Source of the DNA: Terasakiella brassicae
GTDB lineage: Bacteria > Pseudomonadota > Alphaproteobacteria > Rhodospirillales > Terasakiellaceae
Assembly: GCF_014641495.1 (NCBI RefSeq)
Contig: NZ_BMHV01000007.1
Span: forward strand, 1-64,000
DNA: 64,000 bases
Direction of reading: 5' to 3'
Within the stretch, counting starts at the first letter, position 1. Each line of letters begins with the position of its first letter. A program made the translations under genes and the position numbers. Under the pieces are notes generated by a model that saw only the letters and a list, made by a program, of their open reading frames with translations, was not told where the DNA came from and did not search any database. Positions 52,805 to 61,561 of this stretch are shown in pieces.

Positions 52805-54400
52805 CTACCATTTTATCCTTTCTTCACGCTGGGTACGGCGATCAAAAATGCGAATGCCGTCAATATGGTTTTCCACAGATCGTGTTTTTTGTTTTTCTTG
52901 TGCTGGTTTTGTTGCCCTTGATGGCTGCCTAGAGGTTTGTTTCATTAAGGCTTTTTGCAGATTTAACCGTCCGCCGCTGACGACCTTATTGGCAAGACCG
53001 GGGATGGGGTCAACGCTGTTCATCAGTGTTTCTTTGATTTGTAAATTGGTCAGGGTTGGTTGATGGGCAAGAAGTAACGCGGCCGCCCCGCTGACAATCG
53101 GGGTCGCCATCGAGGTTCCTGACTCGAAGTTGTAGCTATCACTCAGCGTCTTTTTTTCCTCATTCGGAAGAACAATGGTGCTAAAAATATCAACGCCGGG
53201 AGCTGCGATATCCACATTTTTGCGCCCCCAGTTTGAAAACTCTGCCAGATCGTCTGTTGGTGTTGTCGCTGCGACACTTAAGATGCCGTCGACGGGGTAA
53301 CTCGCCGGGTATGATCGGGGTTCCCCATCGTTATCGACAGTTTCATTCCCGGCGGCAATGACAAATAAAACACCTTTGGCGGCAAGATCTTCATAGACTT
53401 TTTTAGCAATGAAAGAGTGTCCGAAACTACCGAGGCTCAGATTAATAATGCGCGCACCGTTTTCATAGGCATAGACAATAGCCCCGAGTGAGCCAAGTGT
53501 ATGACCGCGACCACAGCCCCCACCTAAGGATTTAAGGGGCATGATTTTAACTTTATCCGCGATACCTTTGATGCCTTTTGCGTTATTGCCCATTGCTGCG
53601 ATGGTTCCTGCAACATGGGTACCATGTAAGTTTGTGTAAACGCCGCTTTGTCCCTCATGACATTGGTAGTCGGGGGTTATGGTCGGGGCCGGGTACACAA
53701 TGGGGCCGGGCCAGTTGTTACCTTCATAAAAATTCCATCCGAAAATATCATCGACAAAACCATTGTTATCATCATCAATCTTGTTGTCAGGAATTTCCTT
53801 TTTATTAATCCAGATGTGGCCTTTCAGGTCTTCATGGGTGAATTTGACACCCGTATCGACAACAGCAACAATGATATCTTCTGTTGTTGAAGACGGTTGA
53901 GACCAAGCTTCAAAGGCTTTGATCTTGTCCAAAAACCACATTTTATTAATGTGGGGATCATTGGGGGATGCAGGATTTGCCGTATTGGCATAGACGACAT
54001 AGTTTGGTTCCACCGCATAGACATCGGGGTCGCTGGATAAAATATTGGCAAGATTTTCCCAATTGCCATCTCCGGCCGGGTTGCTGACTTGAATGTGCGC
54101 GATATTGAATGAACTGAGCCGTGTATCAATTTTTACATCCTCGCCCAGTTTGGATATCCATTTGGGGTTGTTACCTTTTTTTATGGCATTGAGGGATTTG
54201 TCACTGCGAAACTGGACCAGAAATTCCCCTTCCAGTGCGACAGGGGCTAGGGGGGCTTTCAGGACTTTTGTCCTTTCGCGTACAGGTTGGGCAAAACTCT
54301 TTGAAATCTGCGGAGTCGCACCTATAAAGAAAAATGAAAAAATAAGTGCAAAACTGTGTATTTTTGCTAAAAATCCTGTATATTTTCTTAATGTTCGCAT
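52805..54400 (-). CDS. Subtilisin-like serine protease (S8)
   Basis: 531 residues with a signal peptide (about 1-38), an N-terminal propeptide-like region (EFLVQFRSDKSLNAIKKG..., about 55-120) and the S8 catalytic domain: Asp in VVDTGVKFTHEDLKGH, His in LHGTHVAGTIAAMG, Ser in SGTSMATPIVSGAAAL. The C-terminal tail (about 495-531) is basic (QPSRATKPAQEKQKTRS). A secreted protease of unknown substrate. It is divergent from the giant coiled-coil gene and upstream of the Pro-rich secreted protein gene. Confidence 0.94.
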   Translation of the reverse strand: MRTLRKYTGFLAKIHSFALIFSFFFIGATPQISKSFAQPVRERTKVLKAPLAPVALEGEFLVQFRSDKSLNAIKKGNNPKWISKLGEDVKIDTRLSSFNIAHIQVSNPAGDGNWENLANILSSDPDVYAVEPNYVVYANTANPASPNDPHINKMWFLDKIKAFEAWSQPSSTTEDIIVAVVDTGVKFTHEDLKGHIWINKKEIPDNKIDDDNNGFVDDIFGWNFYEGNNWPGPIVYPAPTITPDYQCHEGQSGVYTNLHGTHVAGTIAAMGNNAKGIKGIADKVKIMPLKSLGGGCGRGHTLGSLGAIVYAYENGARIINLSLGSFGHSFIAKKVYEDLAAKGVLFVIAAGNETVDNDGEPRSYPASYPVDGILSVAATTPTDDLAEFSNWGRKNVDIAAPGVDIFSTIVLPNEEKKTLSDSYNFESGTSMATPIVSGAAALLLAHQPTLTNLQIKETLMNSVDPIPGLANKVVSGGRLNLQKALMKQTSRQPSRATKPAQEKQKTRSVENHIDGIRIFDRRTQREERIKW

Positions 54401-54560
54401 TTTTCTAACTTTACGGGTTGGATGAAAGATAAAAATTTCATTCTAAAAGTTGCATTTAATTTATTTTTGTATCGTAAAGGACGGTTTTTACCGTGCAAGG
54501 AAAATATGAACGGGAGTGAGGCCTTTTTTGGGGCCTGTGAATACAGACACGAGTGGCACG

Positions 54561-57500
54561 ATGAGCAATGATGGTTCAAAGCGAGAGGGTCGGTCTTCTA
54601 TCGAAGTGGCTTTCGACGCAGAAAATCAGGCAGATCAGGTAAAAGATCAGACCGGGGAAAAGGCAGATGAAAAGGGCAAAAAAAATGCCATGCCGGAATT
54701 GTCCCCGTTGCAGAAAGATTACCTGCTTGATGAAGGCGACCGCATGGTTGATGTGGAATTGCTGGCCGAGGAAGACTGGCACGCCCCATTTTATGTGCGT
54801 TATCGTTTTTTAAGTATTGTTGCCGCCCTGTTGTCTGTGGGCTGGGTTTATGGGGCTTATGATTATATCGAAACTTATTTCGGCTGGTCGACGCTTAGTG
54901 AATTGATGCCCCATGAAATTGGTGGTCTGGCTGCGGGGCTTGTTACGCCCTTGGCCTTGTTGTGGTTAATCGTGGCCTATCTGGAACGCAGCCGTTTGTT
55001 GCAGACGGAAAGTCAGGCACTGCGCTGGTATCTGCGCCGTATGGTCTATCCGTCTGAAACCGCAGAACAGCGCGTGCGCGCGATTACGGACTCGTTGCGC
55101 GGCCAAACACAGGAATTGACCCGCGCGTCTGAAGATGCGTTGCTGCGATCACGTGCCATCCATGATTTATTGCGTTCGCGAAGTGTGGAATTGTCCGAAG
55201 TTTCCCACGAGGCCGATACACGGGCGAAAGAAGCAGAAGACAGTTTGCGCCGTCAGGCCGAAGATTTGCTGAATGTATCTGATCGTGCGATTGACCGGGC
55301 GCGTGAAGTCGGCAACGTTTTACACCATCAGGCACATGATTTGGTGAATGTGTCTGAACGTGCCTCCTCTCGCACTGAGGATATTGCGGAAACACTGAAA
55401 CGCCGTGCAAGCGAGCTGGATAGAGTATCGGACGGTATTGTCAATAAAACCAAAGAAACCGCGTCGATCTTTCAACGTGAAGGCAAGGCACTGGAAACGG
55501 TCTTTGAACAGGCCAAAGGGCGCAGTATTGAAATCGGTGACTTGTTGGGCAGTGCCATTGGCTCGGTCAACCAAATGGCCCATGAAGCCGCAGATCGTCT
55601 TAATCAAAATGCCAAATTATTGGACGATCACACTGTAAGCTTGCGCAAAAGCAGTGAAGAGGCCCGCGATCAAGGCGAGGCAATGGGCAAGGTGTTTGAA
55701 CGTCAACTCAAAGAGTTGAATGCGACATCGCAATTGGTGCAAACGCAAACCGGACAAATTCGCGAAAATCTTGTTTCCCAGACGGATCATTTGAACAAAA
55801 CGGCGGATCAGGTTTCCGAGCGTGTGCGTGAGATGCGCGAAAACCTGAAAGGAAGCGCACAGGAATTGATGAACTCCACAGACAATTCGCTGATGGGCAT
55901 GCGCAGTACATCGGATGCATTCCGCCAACAGGCACGCCAGTTGGATTTGGCGACAGAACGGGCGATGGAACGCACTGGCAAGCTGAATGATGAAGTTCAG
56001 GAAACAGCCCAGAAAACATCCAGTGCCGCCAACCGTGTCGAAGAGCGCATTAAACAGATCAGCGATCAATTGTCACAGGCGGGTCGTGATGTGACGATGG
56101 TCAGCGAAGAAGCGCGCGAGCAATTAAACGGGGCCGGTGAAGTTTTACGTTCACGCACCGACGAATTGCAGGAATTGTCCACCCTGTCTGAACAGCGTTT
56201 GCAAAATGCCGGTATCCATTTGCAGAAACGGTCCTTGGATTTGATTGATGCGGCAACCAATGCATCAAGCCGGATTCAGTCTGTGACGGCGGCGCTGCAT
56301 GATGGTTCACAAACCATTACGATTTTGTCGGACAAAGGCGTGGCAAGCATTGATCTTGCAACGGACAGTTTGCGCCGTAGCGCGCAGGAAGTTACCTTGT
56401 TGGGTGAAAAGGCACAAATTCAGGCCGACCATTTGACCGACCGCTTGGGTGAAATGCGTAATAATGCAACTGAGATGGATAGCAGCCTGAAATCTTTGGG
56501 GGCCGAGATTTCAGAACAAAACGAACGTTTGCAAAAAACATCTTTGACCTCACGCGATGCGCTGGCGGAAGCCGGGCGACGTCTTTCCCATCATGCACAA
56601 AATCTGGATCAGGCGTCCAGCGAAGCCGCTGGTCGAATGGAAAGCGTAAGTGCAACCTTGCAAGACCGGACCGAAGAACTGGATCAGGTCAGTGCGCGCA
56701 CAGCAGAACGTTTACATGATATGGATGCAACGTTACAGACCAGTACACGTTCGCTTAAAAATACAGCAGACGCCGCAGCTCGTCAGATGGAAGGCTATTC
56801 CATACGTCTGGATGAACAAACGTCCCTTTTGCGCAGTACTTCGGAACAAACAGCAGGTCAGTTGGAACAGGCGCAATCTGCCATTCGCCAAAGTGGGCAG
56901 GAAATGGCCAGTGCCTCTGACCGTGCGGCGAAGTTGATGGGACTGGTTGGGTCCGGGTTCCAACGTCAACGTGATGCCATGATGAATGCAACCGAAGAAG
57001 CCGGTAAACGCGTCTTTGAAATTGGCGAAGGTCTGGAAAACCATGCCTTGCGTGTCAATCAGGTTGCCGACCAGGCCGGGGCGACATTGACGGATACAGT
57101 CACGGAAATGGAACACCGTGTTGAAGATGCCGGGATAAATCTGACCAAACGTGTGCAACGGGTGGGAACACAGGCACAAACCGTTGTGGACAGTGTCGAA
57201 GTTGCCTCGCGCAGTTTGGAAGAGCAGGCGCAAAAGATCAGCCAGTTTGGCGATCATTTGACCCGTCAATTGATACAAGTCAGCGAAAACACGCAGGCTT
57301 CCGCCCGTGACACCTTGAAAATGGCGGGGCAAACCCGTGATGAATTGAAAGATGTGGGGGACAAGCTTCAGTCTCATATCGCGAATTTGAACCATGTGAC
57401 GCAAGGGGCGCAGGGTAGCTTGTTCGATATGGGCGAGATGTTGGGCAAAAGCGGCGAAAAGATTGCCCGCACAAGCGAAGAGGCACAAGAACGGGTACAA

Positions 57501-58805
57501 TCGGTTAATCGGGAACTGGAACGCCAAAACAGTAAAATCAATGATGTGGCGGATAATGCGCTGGCACGGGTCAGCCAGTTGGGCGCGGAAATTGATACCC
57601 GCAATGACGAGATTGCAATTTCAATGGATCGTGCGGCCAAACTGATGGCGGAAATGGCGGAAAATATGTATAAGGCCAGCCGGGATACGCAAACCAGTAC
57701 CGAACAGGCCAATGCGCAATTGCAAAGTGTAACGCATAATATGGAACGCAGCGGGGATCATGTGGAACAAGTGACCCATCAGACGGTATCCCAGCTTAAA
57801 GAGGCCATTATGGCCATGCAGGAATTTGTCACCCAGTTAGAGGGACGATCTGAAAAAGCGGCACACCGTTTGAACAAAGCCGGTGAACTGGTACGTGAAC
57901 GTTCCGACCTTGTGGCCGGGGCCGCCCATCAAATCCATGCCGATATTGCGCAAGCCGCCGATCATTTGGAAGAACGGGCCAAGGATATTCTATCTGCGGG
58001 TGAACGTTCAGCCCTGCAACTGGATCAAGCAAGCAAGTCGTTGGAGCGCAAAACACGTGCGGCACAAGTCAATGCAATGGAAATCAAGAAAGGCTTTGAT
58101 GTGGCCGGGGCGGCTGCGCGTCATCAAATGGATGAACTGGCCAGCACCGTTAATCAGACCTTGAAAGAAATTACCAAAGCCAGTGATGATCTGGAAAGTC
58201 GCAATGCCGAGGTAACGCAAATTTCCGATCTGGCGATGGAAAAACTGGGCGCATGGGATGACAACCTGAAAAAACGTTCTGATCTGTTGCGCAAAACATG
58301 GTCGGAAGCTGCCCATCAGGCCCATGATGCCGCCAAGGCAATGGAACAACAAACCAAATCCATGAGCCAGCTTAACCGTCATGCCAAAGATCTGGTGAAA
58401 GATCTGTCCGAGGTGGACGGTAAGGTCGGTACGGATGAATTTATGCGCCGTCATGCCTTTGTTGTTGAATCCTTGCAATCCTTGGGCGTGGATATTACGC
58501 GCGAGCTGGAAATCGGGATCAGCGAGGAAGAATGGCGTCGTTTCACCCGTGGGGATCGTTCCATCTTTGTGCGCAAACTTGCGGCCTTGAAAGACCGCAA
58601 TAAACTGAATGCCATCAAGGATGCCTATCGCGACCATGAAGCCTTTAGAACCTACGCAAACCGCTATTTTAGCGAGTTTGAACAATTGATCGTTCAGGCC
58701 AAGGATAAGGACCAACACGGTATCCTCGCCAATACGTTCTATGGTTCCGATGTGGGTCGGGTGTATCTGGCCTTGTGTCAGGGATTGGGACGCGAACCCA
58801 AATAA
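54561..58805 (+). CDS. Giant membrane-anchored coiled-coil protein with 25-residue repeats
   Basis: About 1414 residues from ATG 54561; GTG 54516 would add 15. An acidic cytosolic N-terminus (about 1-85), two membrane helices (about 88-106 and 128-147), then more than 1000 residues of coiled coil and a C-terminal globular domain of about 120 (GVDITRELEIGISEEEWRRF, YGSDVGRVYLALCQGLG). From about residue 180 the coil has an exact 25-residue period: unit cores QELTRASEDA, VELSEVSHEA, EDLLNVSDRA, HDLVNVSERA and SELDRVSDGI each lie 25 apart. The architecture resembles polarity or envelope scaffolds such as TipN, but no homology is claimed. Confidence 0.88.
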   Translation: MSNDGSKREGRSSIEVAFDAENQADQVKDQTGEKADEKGKKNAMPELSPLQKDYLLDEGDRMVDVELLAEEDWHAPFYVRYRFLSIVAALLSVGWVYGAYDYIETYFGWSTLSELMPHEIGGLAAGLVTPLALLWLIVAYLERSRLLQTESQALRWYLRRMVYPSETAEQRVRAITDSLRGQTQELTRASEDALLRSRAIHDLLRSRSVELSEVSHEADTRAKEAEDSLRRQAEDLLNVSDRAIDRAREVGNVLHHQAHDLVNVSERASSRTEDIAETLKRRASELDRVSDGIVNKTKETASIFQREGKALETVFEQAKGRSIEIGDLLGSAIGSVNQMAHEAADRLNQNAKLLDDHTVSLRKSSEEARDQGEAMGKVFERQLKELNATSQLVQTQTGQIRENLVSQTDHLNKTADQVSERVREMRENLKGSAQELMNSTDNSLMGMRSTSDAFRQQARQLDLATERAMERTGKLNDEVQETAQKTSSAANRVEERIKQISDQLSQAGRDVTMVSEEAREQLNGAGEVLRSRTDELQELSTLSEQRLQNAGIHLQKRSLDLIDAATNASSRIQSVTAALHDGSQTITILSDKGVASIDLATDSLRRSAQEVTLLGEKAQIQADHLTDRLGEMRNNATEMDSSLKSLGAEISEQNERLQKTSLTSRDALAEAGRRLSHHAQNLDQASSEAAGRMESVSATLQDRTEELDQVSARTAERLHDMDATLQTSTRSLKNTADAAARQMEGYSIRLDEQTSLLRSTSEQTAGQLEQAQSAIRQSGQEMASASDRAAKLMGLVGSGFQRQRDAMMNATEEAGKRVFEIGEGLENHALRVNQVADQAGATLTDTVTEMEHRVEDAGINLTKRVQRVGTQAQTVVDSVEVASRSLEEQAQKISQFGDHLTRQLIQVSENTQASARDTLKMAGQTRDELKDVGDKLQSHIANLNHVTQGAQGSLFDMGEMLGKSGEKIARTSEEAQERVQSVNRELERQNSKINDVADNALARVSQLGAEIDTRNDEIAISMDRAAKLMAEMAENMYKASRDTQTSTEQANAQLQSVTHNMERSGDHVEQVTHQTVSQLKEAIMAMQEFVTQLEGRSEKAAHRLNKAGELVRERSDLVAGAAHQIHADIAQAADHLEERAKDILSAGERSALQLDQASKSLERKTRAAQVNAMEIKKGFDVAGAAARHQMDELASTVNQTLKEITKASDDLESRNAEVTQISDLAMEKLGAWDDNLKKRSDLLRKTWSEAAHQAHDAAKAMEQQTKSMSQLNRHAKDLVKDLSEVDGKVGTDEFMRRHAFVVESLQSLGVDITRELEIGISEEEWRRFTRGDRSIFVRKLAALKDRNKLNAIKDAYRDHEAFRTYANRYFSEFEQLIVQAKDKDQHGILANTFYGSDVGRVYLALCQGLGREPK

Positions 58806-58825: not shown

Positions 58826-59650
58826 TTAATCTTGGCTTGCAAGTTTTTCGCGGGCAATATCAACAATAAACTCGGCCATGCGCGGATGGGACCCTATGGC
58901 TTGCATTAACCAGATGTTGCGTCCCGGTGCAGCTTCAAACGGGCCTGTAGGCTGGCCGTTTTCGTGAAGGTCGATTTCTTGTTGTGCACTGAGTTCAATC
59001 CCCAAAAATTCAGGGATATCGCGTGCACCGTGGGTGCCCGCCGCAATCATAAACGGCAGGACAATAACATTGGGGGTATTGACCCGCTTTTCCCAGTTTT
59101 TCAAAAAAGGTTTTTCTTCTAAAAAGGCGGGTAGCATGGCTTGAACCGGGAAATGACTGTAGGTGCGTGTCGCCAGCATGACCGCACTGTCGTGAGAGGC
59201 CGGACGGTCCGGGTCCGGGTTGCCGTGGGCAACGACAAAAACGGTTGTTTCACTTGGGGAAAGCTGTTGATCGTCCATCACTTGATGGAGGCGCTCAGCC
59301 ATAAGCGCCGCCAGGTTCGGGTGTTCACCAACGGGTTGACAGAGGTAGATGGTTTGTCCGTTACGCCGGGTCAAAAGGCCATCCAGCCCCATTTCACGCG
59401 GAATGACGACCTTATTGATAAAACCGGAACATGCCAGATTGGGGACAACGACAACTTCCGGGGTGTCCACGTCCTCAAGGGCGTCTTGAAGAAAGGTTTC
59501 TTCCTTCCAGAAGGCGGTTTTGACATCGGCAAATATATTTTGATCTTTAATCCATTGCGCATGCAGACGGGCCGGGCGCCCCATGTTTGGGCTTTTGCTC
59601 GATCCATGTCCGGCAATAATCAAAGTGGTCTGTTTTAATCTGTCATTCAT
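58826..59650 (-). CDS. CbiX-type sirohydrochlorin chelatase, two-domain
   Basis: 274 residues with two class II chelatase domains. The C-terminal half keeps both metal-inserting histidines: His142 in VVAHGNPD and His207 in AAGTHGARDIPE. The N-terminal half has AGHGSSK (His15), but GFINKVVIP stands where GxH-x3-DIP is expected, so only the second site looks complete. It inserts Co or Fe into sirohydrochlorin or precorrin-2. The gene overlaps the 3' end of cobA by 8 bases; the three overlapping genes form one operon. Confidence 0.88.
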   Translation of the reverse strand: MNDRLKQTTLIIAGHGSSKSPNMGRPARLHAQWIKDQNIFADVKTAFWKEETFLQDALEDVDTPEVVVVPNLACSGFINKVVIPREMGLDGLLTRRNGQTIYLCQPVGEHPNLAALMAERLHQVMDDQQLSPSETTVFVVAHGNPDPDRPASHDSAVMLATRTYSHFPVQAMLPAFLEEKPFLKNWEKRVNTPNVIVLPFMIAAGTHGARDIPEFLGIELSAQQEIDLHENGQPTGPFEAAPGRNIWLMQAIGSHPRMAEFIVDIAREKLASQD

Positions 59651-60398
59651 GGTTTAATGTTTGGGCAACGTCGATCACATGACCGATAATCAGCAATGAG
59701 GGCGGTTTGAAGTCGCCCTGGCGTTTGGTTTCAGGGAGGCGTTCCAATGTGGTATAGGCAATGCGTTGGGCTGGCGTTGCGCCGTTTTCGATAATGGCGG
59801 CAGGCGTGTTTGCCGCGCGGCCTGCTTTGATCATATTCTCGGCAATGGCATCTAGATTTTGCAATCCCATATAAATCACAACCGTCATTTCCGGGTCATT
59901 TAATGAGGCCCAGTCGATGTCGAGGTCTGCACCTTCTTTATAATGCCCTGTAACAAAACGGACACTGCGTGCCACACCGCGATGGGTGAGGGGAATGCGC
60001 GCAGCCGCCCCGCATCCAGCCGCAGCCGTAATACCGGGAACAACTTCAAACGGGATGTTTTTTTCCAGCAGGAATTCGGCTTCTTCGCTGCCGCGTCCAA
60101 AGACAAATGGATCCCCGCCTTTTAAACGTACGACAAGCTTGTGTTTGCAGGCGAGTTCAAACAACAGGGCGTTAATCTCTTCCTGTTTTAAAATATGTCG
60201 CCCCGGTGCCTTTCCAACAAAAACTTTTTCGACATGATCAGGGACGAGGCTGAGAATCTCGTCCGTGACAAGGCGGTCATATACGACGACATCGGCCTGT
60301 TCAATCATGCGTAAGGCACGAATGGTCAGTAGATCAGGGTCACCGGGGCCGGCCCCAACAAGAACAACGCGATTGCGGATGTTTTGATCACTGGGCAT
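59643..60398 (-). CDS. cobA: Uroporphyrinogen-III C-methyltransferase
   Basis: Methylates uroporphyrinogen III twice to precorrin-2, the branch point to siroheme and cobalamin. About 251 residues from ATG 60398, which overlaps the 3' end of the preceding gene by 11 bases; an upstream ATG at 60461 is less likely. Motifs: VVLVGAGPGDPDLLT, VRLKGGDPFVFGRGSEEAEF, PGITAAAGC, HRGVARSVRFVTGH and YMGLQNL. It is a stand-alone SUMT, not fused to CysG, as in many alphaproteobacterial nitrate/nitrite gene sets. Confidence 0.95.
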   Translation of the reverse strand: MPSDQNIRNRVVLVGAGPGDPDLLTIRALRMIEQADVVVYDRLVTDEILSLVPDHVEKVFVGKAPGRHILKQEEINALLFELACKHKLVVRLKGGDPFVFGRGSEEAEFLLEKNIPFEVVPGITAAAGCGAAARIPLTHRGVARSVRFVTGHYKEGADLDIDWASLNDPEMTVVIYMGLQNLDAIAENMIKAGRAANTPAAIIENGATPAQRIAYTTLERLPETKRQGDFKPPSLLIIGHVIDVAQTLNHE

Positions 60399-61392
60399 AA
60401 GGGACGGTATCCATTTGGCGGTTGGCCCAAATTGTTTCGGCCTTTGTATGCGCATCATCACAGGATGTGGCGCGCCCCATCAGGCGTAACGCAATGGCGA
60501 TGGTGCCTGTAATGGCGGCAATGGCATATGGATGACAGTCTTCGCCGGACCAGACCTTTTTCAGGCGGGTTATGTCCATTTCCGTGTCATGGTAGGCGTC
60601 TTCCGGTGCAAGGAATGCAGGCCATTCTTCTTCAAAACGTTCTCCGTCAATCAGGTATTGGATGTTGACGGGTTTGGCCGCGCGGCGTTCGATCTCGCCC
60701 CCTTCACCTTTAAAGACACACATGCGTTTTTGCCCCAGCAAATCTGCACAATCGCGATGAATGTCGCGGTAGGCGGAATGGGTAATACATTGCAAGACGC
60801 ACGGGGCATGAAAGGCATTGATCATGCGGGCAAAGGTATTGACCGGTGTACGCACACCCAACGTGGATTTCAGGTCCATGATTTCCTGCAAGACAGGGCT
60901 GATTTTATCTAGTGACAGATAGCTGAAGTTCCCAGTTTTAAGGCGCAAGGCCGCATCTTCCAAAGAGGTGCTTTGGGCAATTCCCAGCTCAGCCAAGGCT
61001 TGATCCGTGTATAGGCGGTTCGCCGTATGGCCTGAGGCGCCATGCATGAAAATTTTAATACCACTTGCAGCCATCGCAAGTGCCGCCAGCAGATAGTAAG
61101 GTAATTGCCGTGCTTTGCCAGCATAGCTTGGCCAATCCAGATCAATTGCCGGTATATCGTTTGGAAGTTTTAACTCATTTCGAACGGCATCAACGAAACC
61201 AGCCCCTTCTTCCGGGTCTTCTGTACGGACGCGCAGAATACACAGGAATGCCCCAAGTTGTATTGGGTCAACCTTATGATTTAAAATCATTGTAGCGGCT
61301 TGAAAAGATTCTTCACGGCTTAAAGGGCGCGATAGACGCGGGCCTTTGCCGATGATACGAATATATTGTGCGAAGGGATGTTCTTGTTGCAT
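60388..61392 (-). CDS. TrpD2/YbiB-like glycosyltransferase-family protein
   Basis: About 334 residues from ATG 61392. It has the fold of anthranilate phosphoribosyltransferase but lacks the usual GTGGD and PRPP-loop residues; MHGASGHTANRLYTD stands at the PRPP/Mg site and LGVRTPVNTFARM follows. YbiB relatives bind nucleic acid and have no known enzymatic activity. It is the first gene of the overlapping operon with cobA and the chelatase gene; the association with siroheme genes is seen in other proteobacteria. The real job here is unknown. Confidence 0.85.
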   Translation of the reverse strand: MQQEHPFAQYIRIIGKGPRLSRPLSREESFQAATMILNHKVDPIQLGAFLCILRVRTEDPEEGAGFVDAVRNELKLPNDIPAIDLDWPSYAGKARQLPYYLLAALAMAASGIKIFMHGASGHTANRLYTDQALAELGIAQSTSLEDAALRLKTGNFSYLSLDKISPVLQEIMDLKSTLGVRTPVNTFARMINAFHAPCVLQCITHSAYRDIHRDCADLLGQKRMCVFKGEGGEIERRAAKPVNIQYLIDGERFEEEWPAFLAPEDAYHDTEMDITRLKKVWSGEDCHPYAIAAITGTIAIALRLMGRATSCDDAHTKAETIWANRQMDTVPYAQ

Positions 61393-61395
61393 GAT

Positions 61396-61434
61396 AATGT
61401 CGATTATACTTGTTTCTTGAGTGTTTCTGAAACA
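61396..61434 (-). promoter_or_regulatory. Promoter and operator-like palindrome upstream of the siroheme operon
   Basis: On the minus strand a TATAAT (61403-61408) sits about 10 bases before the ATG, predicting a nearly leaderless mRNA. At the -35 position is the inverted repeat TGTTTC-T-GAAACA (61422-61434). The palindrome could be an operator for a regulator of this operon or for the divergent Crp/Fnr genes. Confidence 0.4.
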
Positions 61435-61561
61435 TATTCCTTTCGCATTTGCGATAAAAGACATTTGTGCGATTTTTGAGAATTAATTCACCTTCTTGCT
61501 TGCCAAGGGGCTGTTCTTTTTCTTAATAATTAAACTCACACAATTTTTTGGTGACAATCCG

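Follow-up and report, generated by a model that had tools for sequence, protein, structure and literature searches.

A gene of Terasakiella brassicae encodes a 1414-residue protein that, judged by its sequence, is the Rhodospirillales member of the known RgsE/GPR family. The gene lies in the window, the 64,000-nucleotide stretch of DNA analysed here. The protein is most likely a scaffold, consisting of a membrane-anchored cytoplasmic coiled-coil rod and an effector head, that marks or builds the cell pole or growth zone; a probability of about 0.7 is given to this reading. The RgsE/GPR family and its presence in Rhodospirillales are already published. The repeat rule of the rod, its conserved length and its stepwise growth look new, being undescribed in the RgsE/GPR literature examined. 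The assignment ties many Rhodospirillales proteins, most of them unstudied, to the RgsE/GPR pole organisers and defines a common C-terminal domain that is absent from Pfam.

Architecture of the protein and its gene

The frame is open from 54516 to 58805 on the forward strand. The coding sequence runs from the ATG at 54561 to 58805, as indicated by the open frame, the homologues and a start codon common to the window and all five of the other Terasakiella loci examined. Residues 1-82 (54561-54806) form a variable, poorly conserved tail that is probably disordered, with pLDDT values of 45-60 over most of its length. Hydropathy showed two hydrophobic segments, residues ~75-104 and ~115-147, and together with the predicted structure placed transmembrane helices at residues ~83-104 (54807-54872) and ~118-142 (54912-54986). 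An AlphaFold2 model, computed from a 42-sequence alignment, has helices at 83-107 and 117-162 and then a single unbroken helix that starts at residue 166 and runs through the rest of the modelled part. Two N-terminal transmembrane helices ahead of a long helical rod, the arrangement of the RgsE/GPR family, are thus predicted. An Arg-rich stretch follows the second transmembrane helix, hence the rod is probably cytoplasmic.

The rod occupies residues 162-1275 (55044-58385) and consists of about 45 units of 25 residues, as seen by autocorrelation and a unit profile. It is proline-free after residue 164; the 1111 residues from 165 to 1275 (numbered from ATG 54561) have no proline and no cysteine. 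The protein ends in a conserved helical domain, residues 1300-1414 (58458-58802). The first-pass annotation had described a long membrane-anchored rod with two membrane helices and a conserved-looking end domain. The open frame, hydropathy and AlphaFold2 prediction bear out the former, and the latter is a helical domain of ~110 residues found across the order and the class.

The model of the C-terminal domain consists of helices only (mean pLDDT 86, pTM 0.73). It corresponds to no Pfam family. Foldseek gave no match at E ≤ 0.001 (best 0.13), and the best VIA Z of 6.3 fell in a mixture of helical bundles, which leaves the domain without an assigned fold; sequence comparison showed no clear solved relative (best E 0.018). 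With the whole protein, Pfam and NCBIfam returned only sub-threshold coiled-coil matches (ApoLp-III, SMC, Rad50, MCE, ZorA). SMC and Rad50 were rejected as identities: only stretches of the rod match, at 15-35 bits against cut-offs of 567-1087, and a whole-protein match including the ATPase head regions was not seen.

The rod gene is convergent with genes at 58826-61464 on the reverse strand, named by eye as CbiX/SirB-like, uroporphyrinogen methyltransferase-like and anthranilate phosphoribosyltransferase-like. Each of the first two holds this place beside the rod gene in 14 order loci, counting the window. On the other side, a subtilisin-like serine protease gene (52805-54400, reverse strand, also named by eye) is divergent from the rod gene and is adjacent to it within the genus only. 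No CtrA-type box was seen upstream of the rod gene and no second copy was found in the window's genome. In loci L111-L115 and L152 (Sphingomonas) a small Hpt-like gene lies just upstream of the family gene on the opposite strand, forming a divergent pair; W, Q, M or L stands in place of its phospho-histidine ahead of RLKG/RLRG, as in a degenerate Hpt. An Hpt with the histidine lies near the family gene in S. meliloti (L151) and in L160, and L120, L131, L132 and L147 have an Hpt-like neighbour too. Around the window's rod gene, and around that of nearly all order loci, no Hpt-like gene was found.

Periodicity and length of the rod

Autocorrelation of the rod showed 18.4% identity at a lag of 25 residues (z = 13.2 against 300 shuffles), the next strongest lags being 75, 50 and 100. 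Hydropathy gave z = 15.1 at lag 25, 15.6 at 75 and 14.0 at 50. The peak at 25, fixed beforehand as the check on the proposed period, is therefore present in both measures. A circular profile of 25 positions, trained on 42 proteins of the order including the window's, gave the consensus of the unit. From position 24 it reads Leu, x, x, Ala/Val, Ser/Ala, Asp/Glu, Arg, Ala, x, x, Arg, and continues Leu/Val/Ile, x, x, Val/Ala/Ile, Gly/Ser, Glu/Asp, x, Leu, x, x, Gln/Arg, Ala/Ser, x, Glu/Asp. The unit consists of one hendecad, with core positions a-d-e-h occupied by L-A-S-A, and two heptads; the core positions cycle 11+7+7, and the 7+7+11 rhythm proposed from the first reading is confirmed. The same reading had called the period exact, and here it needs correction. 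The period is real and the phase of the unit is unbroken over the rod save in two places, a 4-residue slip that leaves one 21-residue unit at residues ~622-631 (56424-56453) and an extra hendecad of 11 residues near residue 842 (approximately 57075-57110), the latter found in all six Terasakiella loci. Nearly all long-rod homologues have the same 4-residue slip, ~445-475 residues past the N anchor. No tandem repeat is left at the DNA level in the rod gene; therefore the 25-residue period is old and kept at the protein level.

Twenty-five residues over seven turns give 3.571 residues per turn. Because this falls between the heptad value of 3.5 and a straight helix, the coil is expected to be underwound, nearly straight and left-handed. 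On a helical wheel the bulky Leu/Val residues take four positions inside a 58-degree stripe (230-288 degrees), flanked by Ala/Ser with the charges outside, an arrangement that fits a coiled coil, presumably dimeric.

Rod length was taken as the distance between two conserved residues, a Pro that follows the second membrane helix and an Asp in the C-terminal domain. The six Terasakiella loci all give 1147 residues, 14 loci spread over several families give exactly 1136, and three loci give 1158; other loci are 7, 88 or 110 residues above 1136. The 14 rods of 1136 align gap-free with a mean identity of 30% (22-52%), which falls to 19.5% when they are slid by one unit and to 11% when slid by 7. 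Because the N-terminal tail is uneven in length, the N anchor itself shifts by more than 50 residues among the same 14 loci. Two loci have longer rods, L049 by 196 residues and L057 by 588, or 3 x 196. Identity at lag 196 reaches 43% and 90%, respectively, in 98-residue windows of these rods, showing that rods grow by duplicating a 196-residue block. The block equals 7 x 25 + 21 residues, that is, it carries its register slip. Apart from this duplication, rods differ in length by steps of 7 or 11 residues. One order member (L061:5880-10028, forward strand) has a rod period of 40 rather than 25, with 21% identity at lag 40. Rod length is not universal, since the rods of one clade have 726 residues.

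These lengths raise the speculative and rather doubtful idea of the rod as a molecular ruler, with selection acting on register and length (1136 residues, ~165 nm) to set the distance between head and membrane anchor, and with lineages changing this distance only by register-keeping steps of 7, 11 or the 196-residue block. A fixed length alone is no proof of a ruler because coiled coils in general tolerate insertions and deletions badly. Were the ruler reading true, the dimensions of a polar zone or ring would follow from rod length. The exact length and the stepwise growth make the rod-length hypothesis directly testable.

Relatives in the Alphaproteobacteria

The Rhodospirillales C-terminal profile matches a 2,089-residue S. 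meliloti protein annotated as a kinesin at residues 1975-2087 (E 3.5e-37), and the N-terminal profile matches it across the two membrane helices, residues 58-302 (E 6.8e-16, part of this score coming from the coiled coil). Homology is thus seen in both the C-terminal domain and the membrane region. The protein is one of six plasmid-collection records with the C-terminal domain. Its gene adjoins petA, cytochrome b and cytochrome c1, in agreement with fbcFBC, which we take to be SMc00187-189. RgsE (SMc00190) is a GPR homologue of 2,089 residues with two transmembrane helices and is found at the growing pole (PMC7327166). The annotated kinesin is identified as RgsE by its equal length, its species, its anatomy and this gene context. 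The RgsE homologue lies at L151:3088-9357 in CP090106, where the name kinesin is probably a misannotation caused by the coiled coil; this record is labelled pSymB, yet its size of 3.7 Mb suggests a chromosome.

Distribution was determined by whole-genome search for the C-terminal domain. The domain was found in six of six Terasakiella genomes, that of Terasakiella pusilla DSM 6293 being 84% identical to the window's. Of 150 order genomes 114 carry the family gene, nearly always as a single copy, as do 147 of 385 genomes of the class Alphaproteobacteria. The naming of this class and of the order, as being of Rhodospirillales type, is based on the members T. pusilla, S. meliloti and Sphingomonas and on their taxonomy. 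In a phylum sample of 200 genomes the domain occurs in the same class only, with none in the other classes sampled. Distant RgsE homologues have been reported in Emcibacterales and Rhodospirillales (PMC7327166); the literature search found no publication devoted to a TipN or RgsE protein from Rhodospirillales.

A tree of the C-terminal domain was built on 116 columns, and many of its forks are unresolved. On this tree 25 is the rod period most often seen in the class. In the clade to which RgsE belongs the period is 22 (44 in several members), with 18 for three Rhizobiaceae-like rows; 22 and 18 are thus the values used by the Rhizobiales. The period changes at least seven times, some of these changes being in rows with weak periodicity. 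One family thus keeps both ends while exchanging the rod repeat of 25, 22 or 18 residues. The members of family f53 are nearly rodless, with ~325-350 residues comprising two transmembrane helices, a short linker and the C-terminal domain (L161:5631-6677, reverse strand; L124:7120-8091, forward strand).

The TipN protein of Caulobacter (882 residues; PMC13170164) is a probable, as yet unproven, family member, genomes bearing the holdfast marker HfaA standing in for C. crescentus TipN in the sequence comparison. Among 14 control genomes the HfaA marker gave a signal in Caulobacter vibrioides only. The genomes of family f93 include the strongest HfaA match and are probably Caulobacteraceae. They encode two-helix transmembrane coiled-coil proteins of 833 and ~880 residues (the latter from the likely start; its longest frame has 995) with weak copies of the C-terminal domain (per-genome E values of 1.9e-6 and 3.8e-7); a third f93 genome had no match to the domain. 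Family f43, also considered for Caulobacteraceae and TipN, was dropped: the tree groups it with named Sphingomonas, and HfaA was not found in either of the two f43 genomes tested.

Proposed role and comparison with known systems

In S. meliloti and A. tumefaciens, RgsE and GPR sit at the growing pole and shape the cell (PMC7327166), and Brucella RgsE is also at the new pole (PMC9938171). Loss of the last 221 residues of GPR destroys its function, and after loss of 332 residues paired foci remain (PMC8262873). From the place of the domain at the RgsE C-terminus, the GPR stretch so tested probably contains the domain described here, and the result fits a division of labour among anchor, rod and head. 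In the window protein, the two N-terminal helices would fix one end of the rod in the inner membrane. The cytoplasmic rod would self-associate as a nearly straight coiled coil, its 11+7+7 core keeping the partners in register, and could extend ~165-170 nm at most, either along the membrane or away from it. At its far end the C-terminal helical domain would act as an effector head that recruits partners, and a pole or growth zone would be marked or built by analogy with the relatives. PopZ is encoded in the window's genome, therefore a pole-organising protein is present.

The protein could instead be a general scaffold of the envelope or septum, for example one that keeps Tol-Pal or division proteins in place where the cell divides, a distinctly unlikely reading. 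Rhodospirillales presumably grow along the side wall, as such a role would have it. RgsE interacts with TolQ, RgsA and RgsS, and the other Rgs proteins are reported to be missing from Rhodospirillales, so that the role there may differ; in the two bacteria studied, however, neither RgsE nor GPR is located at the septum (PMC7327166). Organisation of internal membranes such as magnetosomes, which the first-pass annotation had also raised, is scarcely credible. The genus Terasakiella includes magnetotactic members, but no neighbouring gene suggests such a role. The family gene occurs in roughly three of every four order genomes and extends to many further families of the class. Judged by these overall counts, it is not restricted or tied to bacteria having internal membranes. 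What stands of the earlier proposal is a probable organiser of pole or envelope, supported by homology to the pole-localised, cell-shaping RgsE/GPR.

A further alternative, highly improbable, is that the rod is an apolipoprotein-like amphipathic helix lying in the membrane surface and binding lipid rather than a coiled coil. It draws on weak Pfam matches to ApoLp-III (24 bits) and Apolipoprotein (21 bits), on a Rhizobiaceae-like relative that reaches 88.8 bits to PF01442 and on lipid roles proposed by the GPR authors. The window protein itself is far below the cut-off, at 20.7 bits to PF01442 against 90. The narrow hydrophobic stripe with its strongly charged flanks suits a coiled coil more than it does the broad face expected for lipid binding, and the phase is held over hundreds of residues with register-keeping insertions and deletions, as a coiled-coil partner demands.

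Apolipoproteins have amphipathic repeats of 11 and 22. Apolipoprotein A1/A4/E (PF01442) and the window rod are alike in their amphipathic helical repeats and differ in the period of 25 and the narrow stripe of the latter. The Scy/FilP-type cytoskeletal proteins of Streptomyces are long coiled coils that mix heptads and hendecads and by this description resemble the window rod; we know of no membrane anchor in them and of no domain that they have in common with the window protein. TipN of Caulobacter has, like the window protein, two membrane helices and a coiled coil, and in its f93 stand-ins the C-terminal domain is diverged and the rod shorter and far less regular. The closest comparison is with RgsE/GPR. 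The hosts of these proteins grow at the pole, whereas we know of no polar growth in the window's organism or in Rhodospirillales-type bacteria, and the apolipoprotein similarity of the window rod is weak. The rod between the anchors is 1147 residues in the window versus 1750-1914 in three Rhizobiaceae-like loci, and its period is 25 versus 22 in RgsE and 18 in three other Rhizobiaceae-like loci. What the window protein shares with RgsE/GPR is the pair of N-terminal membrane helices, a very long proline-poor helical rod and homologous N- and C-terminal regions.
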